DNA of 64,000 nucleotides from Bacillota bacterium (GTDB taxonomy: Bacteria; Bacillota; Sulfobacillia; Sulfobacillales; Sulfobacillaceae), in the NCBI GenBank assembly GCA_021795465.1, contig JAJYPK010000002.1, positions 1 to 64,000 on the forward strand, given 5' to 3'. Every line of letters begins with the position of its first letter. Within the stretch, counting starts at the first letter, position 1. The translations under genes and the position numbers were made by a program. Positions 21,808-58,149 of the stretch are shown here, piece after piece. A model generated the notes under the pieces. It saw only the letters and a list, made by a program, of their open reading frames with translations. It was not told where the DNA came from and did not search any database.

Positions 21808-22138
21808 GGGGTCTTTAACAGAACAGGGTTGTTTTGCGCTCCAACCAAAACACCTGACGAACGTAGGGGAATTTCGCGAAATTATTGAGGGCGGTGCTAC
21901 TGCGGATGCGCCGATGTTCCAGACGTCCGTGACCGATGTTTGAACACAATTTTTTGGTATCCGTATCCTGTGATTGAGCCCGCGTTCTCAGAGCACTGGA
22001 TTCTCTCAGCGATATTCTGTTGAAATGATGGTGTAATAGATGCGACGTCTATGAAACGCCTTGCATTGCTCACGCGCAATGGGGTGGGCTTTCCCGAACG
22101 CAGAGCATATCTTGCTTTCTGCCTTGCCCCGGTGTAAC
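21808..22138. other. Intergenic stretch without a recognised gene
   Basis: About 330 bp between the pyr promoter and the riboswitch promoter. I see no coding pattern on either strand and no clear RNA fold. It marks the left edge of the accessory block that separates the pyr operon from rluD/lspA. Confidence 0.6.
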
Positions 22139-22166
22139 TTGTCCCGCTTCATTTGCGTTATATCAT
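22139..22166 (+). promoter_or_regulatory. Probable promoter of the riboswitch-winged-helix transcript
   Basis: TTGTCC (22139-22144) and TATCAT (22161-22166) are spaced by 16 bp. The start would fall at about 22173, immediately before the conserved CACAGGG of the riboswitch, which supports the assignment. Confidence 0.55.
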
Positions 22167-22175
22167 TACCAACAC

Positions 22176-22265
22176 TTCACAGGGCACACCCGTGCGGAAG
22201 CCGGGGTCGCAAAGTCATAGGGTCTGTCGTTCTGCACTATCAGGACCAGATAGCCTGACTGCCCG
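22176..22265 (+). promoter_or_regulatory. Cyclic-di-GMP-I (GEMM) riboswitch aptamer
   Basis: The RNA contains the GEMM-I core: CACAGGGCACACC, then P2 (CCCG-T-GC, loop GGAA, GC-CGGG, 22189-22205, a GNRA loop), then GTCGCAAAGTCATAGGGTCT, where family members have GACGCAAAGCCACGGGUCU-like bases. P3 is GTTCTG/CAGGAC with loop CACTAT (22229-22246), followed by the tetraloop-receptor side CAGATAGCCTGACTGCC. Every block is in the right order and spacing. It lies 75 nt before the winged-helix gene on the same strand. Ligand binding is inferred from family membership; the GGDEF gene at 57.1 kb shows the genome encodes cyclic-di-GMP-type enzymes. Confidence 0.88.
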
Positions 22266-22290
22266 TCGATCAGACGGCTTGTTCTTGTCT
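22263..22290 (+). terminator. Candidate expression platform (short terminator hairpin)
   Basis: CCGTC and GACGG (22263-22277) form a 5-bp stem with loop GATCA, followed by the T-rich CTTGTTCTTGTCT. The stem begins in the last bases of the aptamer, so ligand binding could compete with it, which would make an ON switch. The T run is broken and the stem short, so this is tentative. Confidence 0.35.
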
Positions 22291-22340
22291 CGGCTTCCGC
22301 CCCTGTCCGATCCAGCGAGTATCCACGCACGGAGGCGACG

Positions 22341-22655
22341 ATGGCCGAGATTTTGGTGTTATCGACACAAATTCGCATCGATTTTGGGCTTCACGGAGTC
22401 TGGCGCGGTCGCCGCTTTTGTCCCTTGCCTGCCCGTAGCTGGGACATTTTGGCGTATCTAGCCCATCATCCCAATACCGTCGTGGCAGAAGAGCAATTAC
22501 TGGCGGTAGGCTGGCCTGGGGAACTCCGCGTGCCCGATGACCTGGTGCGCCATATTCACCGGATCCGTCAGGTCCTCGAAGCCCATCCCCGGCATCCCCG
22601 GCGGTTAGTGACCTACCGCGCTGTCGGGTATTGCCTGCGCACGCCGTCCGCCTAG
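22341..22655 (+). CDS. Stand-alone OmpR/PhoB-type winged-helix DNA-binding protein
   Basis: A 104-aa protein that is essentially only the effector domain of OmpR-family regulators. RSWDILAYLAHHPNTVVAEE-type helix (LPARSWDILAYLAHHP), LLAVGWPGELR, then a recognition helix DDLVRHIHRIRQVLE and the closing wing VTYRAVGYCLR fit the family. There is no receiver domain, so activity is probably set by its amount. GGAGG lies 5-9 nt before the ATG. It follows the cyclic-di-GMP riboswitch, and 127 bp downstream lie direct repeats of the kind this family binds. Target and effect are inferred. Confidence 0.8.
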   Translation: MAEILVLSTQIRIDFGLHGVWRGRRFCPLPARSWDILAYLAHHPNTVVAEEQLLAVGWPGELRVPDDLVRHIHRIRQVLEAHPRHPRRLVTYRAVGYCLRTPSA

Positions 22656-22781
22656 TCCCCCTCCGTCTCATGACAATCTGCCTCTCGACGTTTTGTTCTA
22701 ACTCGTGAGCATCACGGCGGGATCTTGCAGATCTTTCACTGGTAACCCGTTATGCCGTCGACAAGTCCGGCATTTAAAAAG

Positions 22782-22820
22782 TGTCGGAAACATGCCGGAT
22801 TACTGTCGGCTGAGTGTCGG
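22782..22820 (+). repeat. Four direct repeats TGTCGG with exact 11-bp period
   Basis: TGTCGG occurs at 22782, 22804 and 22815, and TGCCGG (one change) at 22793, so four units start exactly 11 bp apart. This is the geometry of Pho-box-like sites bound head-to-tail by OmpR/PhoB winged-helix proteins. The array ends 25 bp before the -35 proposed for the DUF1906 gene. Confidence 0.75.
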
Positions 22821-22845
22821 TTTCGGGGCGTATGCTCAAGTTATC

Positions 22846-22874
22846 TTCAAAACTGGACTCGCAACGTTTATACG
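22846..22874 (+). promoter_or_regulatory. Possible promoter of the DUF1906 gene
   Basis: TTCAAA and TATACG are spaced by 17 bp, each matching consensus at 4 of 6 positions. A weak core promoter just downstream of the phased repeats would suit an activated promoter. Confidence 0.35.
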
Positions 22875-22900
22875 ATAGAAAAAACGAGGAGGTTTTACTT

Positions 22901-23560
22901 ATGGGAGACTCAGCGAATAGTACTCCAGACATTATTTCCCCTCACGTAGTAGCAGCAAATATTCCATCGGGAACAAACGGTTTTGATCGAGATTATTCGC
23001 CATCAGCAACACAGTTTAATCAGATATATAGCGATGGATATCGATTTTATATTGGTTATACGCAGCACATGACGGACACAGACCTCAGTAATGCTCTAAC
23101 AAACGGTTTCGCTGTCATGATGGTAGAGGGTTTTTATAGCGGGATGGTGTCGGATTATACCGGAGCGGAATGGGCGCAATATGCTATTAATGCAGCCCAA
23201 ACTATAGGATATTTAACTGGCTGTAACCTATGGTTAGACCTCGAAGGCATTTCCAATAGTGCCAGCGAAGTGATCCCCTGGGCAAATGATTGGTATGACG
23301 CCGTACAGAGTGCAGGATACGTTCCTGGAATTTATGTGGGAGAGCCAGAACCCTTAACGTCATCCCAACTGTACTATGATTTGAATTTCAGTCATTATTG
23401 GCGCTCGTGTTCCGGGAGTACCCCAAACGTAGACGTTAGGGGATACCAAATATTTCAAACACAGTGCAATGCGTCGATTGCAGGAATCAGTGTGGATTTG
23501 GATACCGTGCAAACGGATAATCAAGGGGGTTTGCCCATCGCAGAATACTATGTATCGTAG
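22901..23560 (+). CDS. DUF1906 (Rv2525c-like) glycoside-hydrolase-like protein
   Basis: A 219-aa protein covering one DUF1906 domain: GFDRDYSPSATQF near residue 27, a strand-rich YRFYIGY, LWLDLEGI near 114, and YVPGIYVGEPEP near 140. The family has a TIM-barrel fold related to GH25-like hydrolases acting on cell-wall or exopolysaccharide glycans; catalysis is unproven for many members. No signal peptide is visible, which is odd for a wall-active enzyme. ATG 22901 has GAGGAGG 8 nt upstream. The gene is distinctly more AT-rich than its neighbours, a sign of transfer. Confidence 0.82.
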   Translation: MGDSANSTPDIISPHVVAANIPSGTNGFDRDYSPSATQFNQIYSDGYRFYIGYTQHMTDTDLSNALTNGFAVMMVEGFYSGMVSDYTGAEWAQYAINAAQTIGYLTGCNLWLDLEGISNSASEVIPWANDWYDAVQSAGYVPGIYVGEPEPLTSSQLYYDLNFSHYWRSCSGSTPNVDVRGYQIFQTQCNASIAGISVDLDTVQTDNQGGLPIAEYYVS

Positions 23561-23598
23561 TCTTGAACGTACCTAAGAAAAGAAGAGGAGCTTTCTCT

Positions 23599-24864
23599 TC
23601 AGTTTACAGACGTCCATGTACGTCCCCTGTCTGTTGTTTTCAAGAGAAGTGTGCGCACCGGAGCAGTCACTTTTGGAGCGCTACCAACGATCAGCCATGA
23701 CGTGTTGACGGTATCCGAGGCCAAGGCATAGAAATTCGGATACGACTTTAAAAACGCAGGCAAATTGGTGTGCTCCGGCGTGTACCAGGACGTGCCTCCG
23801 TTCCGCATCTGGTACCATGTATTGTTAGTGAACACATCCACCGTAGACCCATTGAGAAAGTTACATCCGTAGGGTGCGTAAGTGGTTGGCAATGACGGCG
23901 TACCCGGAACGGGATACCAAGAGACTCCATCGTTGCGGGTACGATATACCACCAGGCTCAGCTGGGGAGTCGTCTTGTTTCGTAACGTGTCATACACAAT
24001 GGCAAAGGTTCCCTTTTGTGGTTGGCGGGCGGAAAATGTGGGTCCGAAGACTTTCAGGGTGCTGGCGTGAGCGAATTGTGGTAAAGACGGTAAGGTCACG
24101 CGATGCCAATGGAGGCCGCTGTTTGTCGAGTGATACAGAAATATGCCAGATTGGATCGGATTAGCCAGGAGCCACCATCCGGCCGTTGCCGTCGGAAACG
24201 TGACATGCTGGGATATACCGGGATTAAATTGGCTGTGGGTCAGGGGATTGGGGGAGATCTGGTACCATGTGGTACCGCCATTGATAGTCCGGTATATCCA
24301 CTTCAACGATTGCTCCATGGCACCACTCGATTCGAGCACCATCCATCCCTGGCGAGGATTGATAAAGTCCAATTGGGAAACCGTCGTGGCTTCGGACGGC
24401 ACTGGTATCGATGAAACGTGCCAATAGTGTCCCCCATCAATTGTGGATTCGATCCAGATCCTGGATGAATGGGGATCGCGCCAGGCGATCCACCCATCGC
24501 CGTGACTCCGCATAACCAGTTGAGGAATCCCTGACATTCCGGTTGCAACGGACGCTTCGGCCATTGGTTGAGACGGTGGAGACTTTGGCAGAGGAATCTG
24601 TTGCCAAGTCTGCCCGGCATTCGTGGTGTGGAGGACCACAAACCGGGTGTGGTGATACCCGACTACCCATACGGAATAGGGACTAGACAGCGTCACGTAT
24701 ATCGGATGAAATGCCGGGGACATTACAAATCTTGGGATGGTAGAATGAACTGCTACATAGGGGGATCCCTGCGAAGAAGGCGCTGCACTCACGCCGCATC
24801 CCGTCAATCCAATCATCCCCAACGCCATGACTATACTGACTACGACACGATGTGGTGTCACCAT
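23599..24864 (-). CDS. Seven-repeat beta-propeller lipoprotein (Asp-box/YCF48-like)
   Basis: A 421-aa exported protein. The N-terminal hydrophobic helix ends in the lipobox LTGCG, so it should be lipid-anchored at Cys23 on the outer face of the membrane. Asp-box-like turns recur about every 45-60 residues: NAGQTW, DGGHYW, NGGTTW, NSGLHW, NDGVSW, NGGTSW, DRGRTW, consistent with a seven-bladed propeller as in sialidase or YCF48 proteins. Ligand or partner is unknown. AAGGAG lies 10 nt before the ATG. It converges with the DUF1906 gene; a short GAAGAG/CTCTTC hairpin at 23582-23600 may act as a weak shared terminator. Confidence 0.82.
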   Translation of the reverse strand: MVTPHRVVVSIVMALGMIGLTGCGVSAAPSSQGSPYVAVHSTIPRFVMSPAFHPIYVTLSSPYSVWVVGYHHTRFVVLHTTNAGQTWQQIPLPKSPPSQPMAEASVATGMSGIPQLVMRSHGDGWIAWRDPHSSRIWIESTIDGGHYWHVSSIPVPSEATTVSQLDFINPRQGWMVLESSGAMEQSLKWIYRTINGGTTWYQISPNPLTHSQFNPGISQHVTFPTATAGWWLLANPIQSGIFLYHSTNSGLHWHRVTLPSLPQFAHASTLKVFGPTFSARQPQKGTFAIVYDTLRNKTTPQLSLVVYRTRNDGVSWYPVPGTPSLPTTYAPYGCNFLNGSTVDVFTNNTWYQMRNGGTSWYTPEHTNLPAFLKSYPNFYALASDTVNTSWLIVGSAPKVTAPVRTLLLKTTDRGRTWTSVN

Positions 24865-25108
24865 AAGGTGATGTCTCCTTCGCCTCTCAAGGCATTTAAT
24901 CCATTCTCTTGAATAACGACGGATGGAGCGATCCGGTTACGCACTGAGAAGGAACAGGCGGTAGACCGACGTGATCGAAGGGAGGGAACCAGATGCTGAC
25001 ATGGTCCATGCTCGGTACAACCACGGGGGCTGTTCTGTTCGTCCATGCGGTCCTCTTTTTGACACGCCGACTGTTCCCCCCATGCATCAACGACCATGGT
25101 TGCGCTGG
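24865..25108. other. Intergenic leader region of the lipoprotein gene
   Basis: Between the broken gene and the lipoprotein start. Only out-of-frame open frames cross it and none has family features. No hairpin or repeat stands out. Confidence 0.5.
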
Positions 25109-25651
25109 TTACAGCCGTGCATCCATGGCGGTTGCATCGGCCACAAGAAACCAGAGCAAATGTTGTGTGTCCTGGGTATCGAGCCACGACACCCAAAGAC
25201 GAGCGGCATGGGCTAAAGGGCCAAGGTCGGTCCCGTGAAATACTGGCTGAACCAACATTCCCCAATGGCCTTCCGGCGTATGCCACAAGGTATGACACAG
25301 CGGTGATGGAACGCCCTCCGCCAACGCAGGGAGCCATGCCCAGTCGTCAATCCGTGGCCGCGCGGGAGTAGTCATGGCACTGGCCGCCCACTCATTCACC
25401 CACAGCCAAGCAAACAAGCGATCCAGGGGCATTACACGATGTACCAAGTAACGCCCGTTGGGCACCGTTCCGCGCACCACGGAATCCAGTCCCGATGCGG
25501 CATAAAACGGATGCCATAACTGCACTCGCGGATCGATAGAAGTGCCGTTATCTCAGGTCAAGCGTGTTCCCCAGCCATACTTCGCCAAGAGAGCAGGCAG
25601 GTTTTTATAGCCTCTAGGCAATAGGCGGTGCAACTGATTCGGGGTCACCAT
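25109..25651 (-). pseudogene. Unrecognised gene interrupted by an in-frame TGA
   Basis: A frame opening at ATG 25651 (MVTPNQLHRLLPRGYKNLP...) meets a TGA at 25555-25553 and then continues open for 148 codons (DNGTSIDPR, QLWHPFYAASG..., ending ATAMDARL). The two parts read as one protein of about 180 residues with many Trp and His residues. I do not recognise the family. The downstream part could restart at GTG 25525, but no ribosome-binding site precedes it. Decay is the simplest reading; a functional shorter protein is possible. Confidence 0.4.
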
Positions 25652-25736
25652 GATGACGCTGGAGCACCATAAGCAGTTGCGCACGGTCGGGGGCGTTAGG
25701 ATAGGCCCAAAACCGTTGGATCGCCTGTGTGGTCAT
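25614..25736 (-). CDS. Small 40-aa open frame after the S1-domain gene
   Basis: ATG 25736 follows the S1-domain stop by 3 bp, with AAGGACGG about 10 nt upstream. It encodes MTTQAIQRFWAYPNAPDRAQ and 20 further residues, and its end overlaps the start of the broken gene by 38 bp. No family recognised. The operon-like spacing is the main support. Confidence 0.35.
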   Translation of the reverse strand: MTTQAIQRFWAYPNAPDRAQLLMVLQRHHGDPESVAPPIA

Positions 25737-25739
25737 CAC

Positions 25740-26243
25740 CTACCGTCCTTCCGCGATCCGATTCACGTACTGACCATAAATCGTGCGACGCTCGGACTGG
25801 ACGGCCACAATACGCACACGAACGCGGTCGCCTTCCTTGACCGCAAGCGGTTCACGGGAACGAACCACGACCTCAAGGCCTTCGGGCATGTGCAGGCTGA
25901 CCAATACGGCAGTCGGCATCAGGCGACGCACCTGGCCGGAATACACCTGCCGCACCTTCACAGTCTTGATGAGTTCATCCCAGCGTCGTTGCCATGGCAT
26001 GATAGCGTCTAACGTAATACGCGGCTCCCCATCGTGATCATCAATCTTGGCCACGCCTACTTTAAGCTTCGTCCCACGGGGAAGGCGAACCCGAGGATCA
26101 TCCGCAATACCCATACGACTACGCGGGAGCAATCCGGTTAAACCACCGATATCGCAGATAGCACCTTCTTTAGTGAAGGTGACAGTTGTTCTAAAGACGT
26201 GATACTCTACCGAGAAGGGGGTGCTCAATGAATCATAATTCAC
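25740..26243 (-). CDS. S1-type RNA-binding domain protein
   Basis: A 167-aa protein. TKEGAICDIGGLTGLLPRSRMG near residues 24-45 is the central part of an S1 domain, followed by VGVAKIDDHDGEPRITLD, the typical closing strand. A second OB-like stretch (GQVRRLMPTAVLVSL) lies near residue 103. The first S1 lacks the usual opening GxhhxGxV strand. Start is a weak GTG at 26243 whose 5' end overlaps the divergent mscS start by 16 bp, so the true start could lie a few codons inside. Probably binds RNA; target unknown. Confidence 0.65.
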   Translation of the reverse strand: MNYDSLSTPFSVEYHVFRTTVTFTKEGAICDIGGLTGLLPRSRMGIADDPRVRLPRGTKLKVGVAKIDDHDGEPRITLDAIMPWQRRWDELIKTVKVRQVYSGQVRRLMPTAVLVSLHMPEGLEVVVRSREPLAVKEGDRVRVRIVAVQSERRTIYGQYVNRIAEGR

Positions 26244-57147: not shown

Positions 57148-58149
57148 GTGAGCCAGCCGGATAGTGTCTTACGCATCTTTCTCGACACCTCTCGCGACAT
57201 CATCCGCGAGCCGTCTTTACAGGGAAAACTGTCACTCATTGCGCACGCATGGGTCCGATCTGGACTGTTTAACCGCGTCGCGGTTCAACTCTATCGCACT
57301 TCGTACGGGGAGAAGATTTTTGGATTTGCGGGATTGTCCACCAGTGAAGAACAATGGCTTTTTGCCCATGACAATATGGAACAAGCGGAGTATGCAACCA
57401 TTCGCGAGATGGCCATCGATTTGGGTGGCCTTTATTATGTTCGCCACGATAGGATGGATGAAGAGTTCGCCAAACATCTCCTGACCTCTTCGTCCACCAA
57501 CCGAGGAAAAGGATGGCACCCCGAAGACATGATTTTTATTCCATTGTTCTCGTCCCAACAGGTGATGATGGGCAATATCACCGCGGACGAGCCCACGGAT
57601 GGTATGATCCCGAGCGCCTATACCGCACAGTTAGTAGCCCCTTTCGTCGCATTGACTGCGGCGACCCTCGAACAAGAGCTCACCCGTCGCCACGACACCT
57701 TAACCGGCCTTTTTAACAGCCACTTCCTTGATGACCGCTTGGCAAGACGGATCACCCAACACATACCGACAGGATTAGTGTATTGCGATATGGATGGACT
57801 AAAGTCCATCAATGATAATGATGGTCATGACGCCGGAGACCAGGCCATCCGTCAAATGGCGTCGGCATTAAATACCGTTATTACATCATGGGGTTCCGCG
57901 CGACCTGCCACCGCCTTCCGCCTCTACGGCGATGAATTTGTTCTAATCTTCACCCCCCGAGTCGGCGAGACGAACCAGGATATTTTGCGTTCCATGGCGG
58001 CCATATGGCCCGCTGGTGCTCCGGCGACGAGCGCGGGAGTAGCGCGGGCGAAACCTGGAGATACTGCGACGACCCTAATGCGACGTGCAGAACTCCAAAT
58101 GTATGTTCAAAAGAACCAAAAGCGAATCAAACCACGTCGGAAATCATAG
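57148..58149 (+). CDS. GGDEF-domain protein with N-terminal GAF-like sensor (probable diguanylate cyclase)
   Basis: A 333-aa soluble protein. Residues 1-165 look like a GAF domain, and 175-330 form a GGDEF domain: DTLTGLFNSHFLDDRL, the metal-site stretch YCDMDGLKSIND near 212 and RLYGDEFVLIF near 259. The signature is YGDEF rather than GGDEF, and no RxxD inhibition site is visible. Metal and catalytic Asp/Glu are kept, so synthesis of cyclic-di-GMP is plausible but not certain. GTG has GAGGAGG 7 nt upstream. It may supply the ligand for the riboswitch at 22.2 kb. Confidence 0.85.
   Translation: MSQPDSVLRIFLDTSRDIIREPSLQGKLSLIAHAWVRSGLFNRVAVQLYRTSYGEKIFGFAGLSTSEEQWLFAHDNMEQAEYATIREMAIDLGGLYYVRHDRMDEEFAKHLLTSSSTNRGKGWHPEDMIFIPLFSSQQVMMGNITADEPTDGMIPSAYTAQLVAPFVALTAATLEQELTRRHDTLTGLFNSHFLDDRLARRITQHIPTGLVYCDMDGLKSINDNDGHDAGDQAIRQMASALNTVITSWGSARPATAFRLYGDEFVLIFTPRVGETNQDILRSMAAIWPAGAPATSAGVARAKPGDTATTLMRRAELQMYVQKNQKRIKPRRKS

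Follow-up and report, generated by a model that had tools for sequence, protein, structure and literature searches.

The window analysed here, a 64,000-nucleotide stretch of a contig from a Sulfobacillaceae genome, contains a small gene islet carrying a winged-helix regulator gene, a lysozyme-fold gene and, between them, an array of short direct repeats. The islet and its features are:

21809-26172, no strand: inserted islet between pyrR and an mscS-like gene, about 4.4 kb, absent from relatives
22134-22163, forward strand: P1, an ECF-sigma-like promoter, GTAAC-N17-CGTTATAT, before the aptamer and the regulator gene (consensus, recurrence, invariant cores in the ortholog alignment)
22174-22267, forward strand: c-di-GMP-I riboswitch aptamer in the regulator leader (RF01051)
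22341-22655, forward strand: stand-alone OmpR/PhoB-type winged-helix DNA-binding protein, 104 aa (PF00486, PDB profile, AlphaFold/Foldseek)
22533-22577, forward strand: predicted recognition helix PDDLVRHIHRIRQVL, codons 65-79 (AlphaFold model; variable residues track the array motif)
22782-22820, forward strand: putative operator array, four TGYCGG units repeated head to tail at an 11-bp period (sequence, orthologs, 24 other loci)
22821-22836, forward strand: P2 core promoter, conserved TTTCG spacer and -10 TATGCT, own -35 absent (TTYR-N5-TANNNT anchor across paralogs)
22886-22892, forward strand: ribosome-binding site GAGGAGG of the downstream gene (sequence)
22901-23560, forward strand: putative target gene, Rv2525c/GH25-like lysozyme-fold protein, 219 aa (PF08924, phrog_291, model)
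23599-24864, reverse strand: BNR/Ycf48-like lipoprotein gene inside the islet (PF14870, E 3e-11)
24993-25235, forward strand: decayed gene for a holin-like small membrane protein (62% identity over 29 aa to L034)

The pyrR gene adjoins mscS, with the stretch 21809-26172 absent, in G001, a genome of the same genus, as well as in G011, G016 and G008. The left edge of the islet (21827-21943) is a sequence that recurs in the window's own genome, with 89%-identical copies at G000:C28:15818-15918 and G000:C162:5-77, and also in other genomes; its coding tail (LTNVGEFREIIEGGATADAPMFQTSVTDV*) appears to resemble the end of a transposase. Opposite-strand genes with lipoprotein-like starts occupy the place matching that of the BNR/Ycf48-like gene in L149 and L142. 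A PyrR-binding RNA element in the pyr-operon leader (RF00515; 21682-21766, reverse strand) scored 48.8 bits, just under the gathering threshold of 54.

The units of the array are TGTCGG at 22782, TGCCGG at 22793, TGTCGG at 22804 and TGTCGG at 22815, and direct reading upheld the exact 11-bp period reported in the initial annotation. Four phased TGYCGG units without mismatch occurred once in the window, against 0.00 expected from 100 shuffles, and the sole further match to the four-unit pattern, with 3 mismatches, was the same array shifted by one unit. A search of the 3.58-Mb genome for further phased repeats, as had been suggested, found three or more units at the window array only, which rules out a genome-wide regulon site; a reversed control pattern had 0 matches in the same genome. 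Lone TGTCGG words were at background level (37 found, 39 expected), so that the signal lies in the phasing, with no contribution from the word itself.

The genes on either side of the array are those first proposed, a winged-helix gene upstream (PF00486 Trans_reg_C, E 6e-14) and a DUF1906 gene downstream (PF08924 Rv2525c/DUF1906, E 1.7e-10), and the upstream gene does hold the single Trans_reg_C domain of the window, out of 12 in the genome. The best PDB profile match of the 104-aa protein was the DNA-binding domain of YycF (E 6e-17), and its AlphaFold model (pLDDT 89.6) superposed on that domain (2d1v) with a Foldseek TM-score of 0.87, which indicates that the predicted structure has the full PhoB-like fold. 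The PF00486 profile and the model accounted for a DNA-binding domain only, with no receiver domain carrying a phosphoacceptor Asp; likewise, profile search and model gave no second domain and hence no BTA domain. Because receiver and dimerisation domains are absent, the activity of the regulator should follow its amount. No close relatives of the regulator were found in phage or viral collections. The possibility that it is a phage gene was rejected: there was no viral-contig match, matches to phage records were partial and of low identity, and the one annotated match among them was a phoP-type regulator.

Homologs of the 104-aa protein were collected from related genomes, including 34 genomes of the window's own family. 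Stand-alone homologs were mostly limited to this family, and matches outside it were mostly full-length response regulators. Mean self-match of the DNA downstream of the homologs peaked at lags 11, 22 and 33 only, and the upstream control stretch had no peaks at these lags; among 52 homolog hits, 29 had their best self-match at lag 11. No phased array was present at p<0.011 in any of 20 control regulators that share the fold and are, with few exceptions, full-length, and none was seen at DUF1906 relatives that do not adjoin such a regulator. Together, these results show that the array belongs to the regulator gene; the lack of phased arrays at lone homologs ruled it out as a property of the DUF1906 gene family, and a search for related loci with the DUF1906 protein as query gave no match. 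In all, phased arrays of 3-8 clear units each were present at 25 loci in 12 genomes, plus two close orthologs. About half of the homolog hits had no array, many of these being divergent, fragmentary or in other contexts. At L081, L091, L094 and L035, two winged-helix regulator genes or gene fragments stand in tandem, with an array at some only.

The orthologs at L142, L143 and L149, whose proteins share 77-80% identity with the window regulator, kept the repeats along with the regulator. The array was 95%, 92% and 82% identical in L142, L143 and L149, respectively, whereas the preceding intergenic stretch reached 61-62%; between the window and L142, array versus surroundings gave an odds ratio of 11 (p 4e-5). 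Linkage and conservation thus support the prediction, made in the initial annotation, that the protein encoded at 22341-22655 binds the array. Similarity to the orthologs at the DNA level begins at window position 22134, with the -35 of the upstream promoter, and extends to about 22839, a short way beyond the -10 of the array promoter; past this point it is about 40%, since a different gene follows there. The orthologs therefore retain promoter, aptamer, regulator and array as a unit whose downstream gene is exchanged, and the array remains linked to the regulator gene when another gene follows. In L149 the regulator is frameshifted and the array remains; in L098 the N-terminal half of the regulator is lost and a weaker array remains. 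These two loci indicate that some cassettes are decaying.

Arrays were aligned on a TANNNT box with a preceding TTYR-N5, some of the -10 anchors being placed by eye. In most paralogs the array and the TTYR-N5-TANNNT anchor were in register; in the common register, the start of the last unit lies 16 bp ahead of the TANNNT -10 (25 loci, 12 genomes). Among array loci in this register, unit columns 1-6 were conserved (mean pairwise identity 0.60-0.79), unlike columns 7-9 (0.36-0.46). The weak promoter initially annotated 25 bp past the repeats was thus misplaced; the paralog comparison makes TATGCT at 22831-22836 the probable -10. This box starts 10 bp past the last hexamer of the window array, so that the array itself fills the -35 region. 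A generic sigma-70 scan gave no promoter further downstream of the repeats. Judged from these distances, the register matches the geometry of PhoB and SARP activator sites: PhoB is modelled as binding direct repeats across the -35 region with sigma contact (PMC3348028), and SARP promoters have repeats 11 bp apart, the last of them 8 bp from the -10, a poor -35 and sigma adaptation (PMC10936776).

The sequence of the unit varied among loci. The array motifs included TGTCGG, TGTCNG, TATCAG/AATCAG, AATGAG, CTGCA/CTTCA, CCTGC, TGNCAG and AATTGG. Regulators beside TGTC arrays had the recognition helix DLxRHIHRIR, those beside ATCAG arrays DLF[PS]QI[HY]RIR, and those beside CTGCA arrays DLQxHIHRIR. 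Over 20 loci, motif distance correlated with helix distance (Mantel r 0.34, p 0.006), and also when the rest of the protein was controlled for (partial Mantel r 0.24, p 0.025), which removes part of the effect of shared ancestry. G014, G030 and G002 each carry several arrays that are distinct from one another, and those of G031 and G032 are alike. These observations are moderate evidence, short of proof, that motifs and recognition helices co-diverged.

Upstream of the regulator gene, P1 matches the ECF consensus, with an AAC-containing -35, a spacer of about 17 bp and a CGTT-type -10, and its sigma factor would thus be of the ECF class. The P1 pattern was present upstream of 19 of the 25 array loci compared with 36 of 260 random stretches, where a somewhat looser pattern was used. 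The aptamer that follows scored 43.5 bits with RF01051 (gathering threshold 35; E 4.4e-7, whole genome), and 38.1 bits with RF03167, below the gathering score of 59 for that family. We take one of its G residues to match G20 of c-di-GMP-I riboswitches. RF01051 was also above cut-off in the three orthologs tested (46.0, 41.7 and 39.9 bits in L142, L143 and L149), and paralog aptamers reached 73.9 bits (L033) and 61.5 bits (L038). Aptamers precede the paralogs L033, L036, L037, L038, L082 and L042 and the orthologs L099/L149, L142 and L143; only 7 of the 25 array loci have a riboswitch upstream, as do two orthologs, and most cassettes have no detectable aptamer. A 10-nt stretch of the leader (22291-22300) is perfectly complementary to aptamer positions 22196-22205 (CGGCTTCCGC / GCGGAAGCCG), and this pairing is a possible expression platform. 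The complement was found in the leaders of the window, L099, L142 and L143 but is missing from most other aptamer-bearing paralogs, and the leader fold is not unusually stable (z -0.94), for which reasons we do not assign an ON or OFF sense to the switch. The genome encodes 11 GGDEF domains, one of them in the window (PF00990, 81.5 bits; 57691-58125, forward strand). It also has two stronger c-di-GMP-I riboswitches, at G000:C58:523-610 (77.0 bits) and G000:C193:33368-33460 (70.4 bits); a quick look at these loci, L154 and L155, revealed no array cassette.

The 219-aa product of the gene behind the array matched the endolysin family phrog_291 (E 1.3e-5). Its model (pLDDT 91.2) gave Foldseek hits to 1sfs (E 1.6e-9) and Rv2525c (4pmn, E 2.6e-9), as well as to GH25 lysozymes and the phage endolysin 4kru; a lytic function may be proposed on these grounds. 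Genes behind the arrays of other cassettes often encode GH25/Rv2525c-like lysozyme-fold proteins (GH25 at L037; Rv2525c-like at L099 and L081), some of them near holin-like genes, and at several loci the cargo includes small holin-like membrane proteins. In the window, the frame of the holin-like gene at 24993-25235 is lost after about 29 matching residues, whereas the L034 protein is intact. Intact holin-like homologs are also present at L149 (8058-8324) and L150, and a second type at L084, L039 and L080. A lysis role of the cassette cargo is therefore plausible on homology. Phage-lysis features are thus represented by the endolysin-like target and the holin-like gene, in combination with a regulator that has no close match in phages or viral contigs. 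Two cassettes have sigma-region-4-like cargo behind the array, L038 after 1833 (PF08281, E 1.9e-10) and L084 after 1442 (PF04545, E 3.3e-6), suggesting that a cassette could feed back on an ECF-type promoter.

We propose that positions 22134-22839 are very probably a self-contained module whose own regulator loads the array and activates the lysozyme-fold gene at 22901. The ECF-type promoter would transcribe the c-di-GMP-I riboswitch and then the bare PhoB-type winged-helix gene, so that the dose of regulator would be set by c-di-GMP and an ECF sigma factor. Copies of the regulator would then fill the four 11-bp TGTCGG units cooperatively, in head-to-tail order, and, in the manner of PhoB and the SARPs, recruit sigma factor and RNA polymerase to the -35-less TATGCT promoter, turning on the gene at 22901. 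Recruitment is suggested by the promoter-proximal units, which sit in the place of the -35 box, and several adjacent units would give a threshold response. Precedent for this mode of binding comes from PhoP, whose operator consists of a 7-bp motif and a 4-bp spacer (an 11-bp period); its isolated DNA-binding domain shows cooperative binding to direct repeats, and binding of the full protein extends to three or four units and is tighter on three- and four-unit arrays (PMC4832192). The operator of PimR similarly has three heptamers with 4-bp spacers (PMC5930380). The initial reading of array and regulator is supported; it had overlooked the c-di-GMP-I riboswitch and the ECF-like promoter before it, the actual -10, the diversity of motifs among loci, the exchange of downstream genes and the mobile islet.

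Binding of the regulator to the array might instead repress or fine-tune the downstream gene by covering its promoter. The array does lie over the -35 region and a protein bound there could keep polymerase out, and a repressor under riboswitch control is possible; without a -35 box, however, nothing is left there to block, and the register with the -10 fits activators of the same fold, both SARPs (PMC10936776) and PhoB (model, PMC3348028). We thus consider repression unlikely. Less likely again is that the array binds another OmpR-type protein and that the neighbouring regulator gene is incidental. The three-unit phasing is found nowhere else in the genome, unlike the site of a regulon, the motif shifts with the subfamily of the adjacent regulator at many loci, and relatives of the downstream gene standing alone are without the array; these observations outweigh the presence of 11 further Trans_reg_C domains in the genome and the fact that several such regulators read TGTC-type direct repeats. 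We find it very improbable that the array serves excision or recombination of the islet and that the winged-helix protein is the recombination directionality factor for it. The cassette sits on an islet missing from relatives, and the winged-helix excision factor RdfS oligomerises on DNA (PMC11963761), but the array lies inside the islet, at a fixed distance from a -10 and before a gene at many loci, and the nearest structures of the protein are response-regulator domains. A chance array or a decaying, functionless tandem duplication, to which the short units and the copies in degenerate cassettes might point, can be dismissed given the zero expectation from shuffling, the conservation above surroundings together with the paralog arrays, which refute it, and the single phase shared by separate motifs at many loci.

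The operator logic, 11-bp head-to-tail repeats across the -35 region, is already known from PhoB and the SARPs. As in the Pho box and other PhoB/PhoP operators, the head-to-tail 11-bp units would serve a winged-helix domain; in contrast to PhoB and PhoP, the window regulator has neither a receiver domain nor phosphorylation, and the cassettes have 3-8 units in an array that lies beside its own regulator gene and varies in motif between paralogs. The arrays of SARPs (AfsR and relatives, Streptomyces) likewise have repeats 11 bp apart, near the -10 and without a good -35, and the cassette heptamer would end 9 bp from the -10, versus 8 bp in SARPs (PMC10936776); the window regulator differs in being a bare 104-aa domain with no BTA domain, from a different phylum. 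The window aptamer is above the gathering threshold, like other c-di-GMP-I (GEMM-I) riboswitches (RF01051), but precedes a transcription factor that apparently controls one neighbour, instead of an effector directly. The putative target matches Rv2525c/GH25 lysozyme-fold proteins, including phage endolysins, by fold and family; phage and viral collections gave no close relative of the cassette regulator.

In the open-licence literature we found nothing that connects Sulfobacillus to such regulators under the control of a c-di-GMP riboswitch; because only open-licence papers were covered, this absence is weak evidence of novelty. Nor did the literature searched yield the combination of a bare DNA-binding domain travelling with its operator and promoter, a c-di-GMP riboswitch and motifs varying between paralogs. 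From the comparison of loci, the module in all likelihood belongs to a family of local regulator-array pairs with distinct motifs and exchangeable downstream genes. A more specific proposal, to which we give about even weight, is that these pairs form an undescribed family of mobile cassettes, probably of the Sulfobacillaceae, in which a minimal activator has co-diverged with a private 11-bp array, with several insulated pairs per genome, ECF-type promoters, in part c-di-GMP riboswitches, and exchangeable lysozyme-like or holin-containing lysis genes. The cassettes amount to a naturally occurring collection of minimal activator-promoter pairs, with which the recognition code of the PhoB-type helix can be tested directly, and they could connect signalling by c-di-GMP with a possible role in lysis among acidophiles of what are presumably mining environments.
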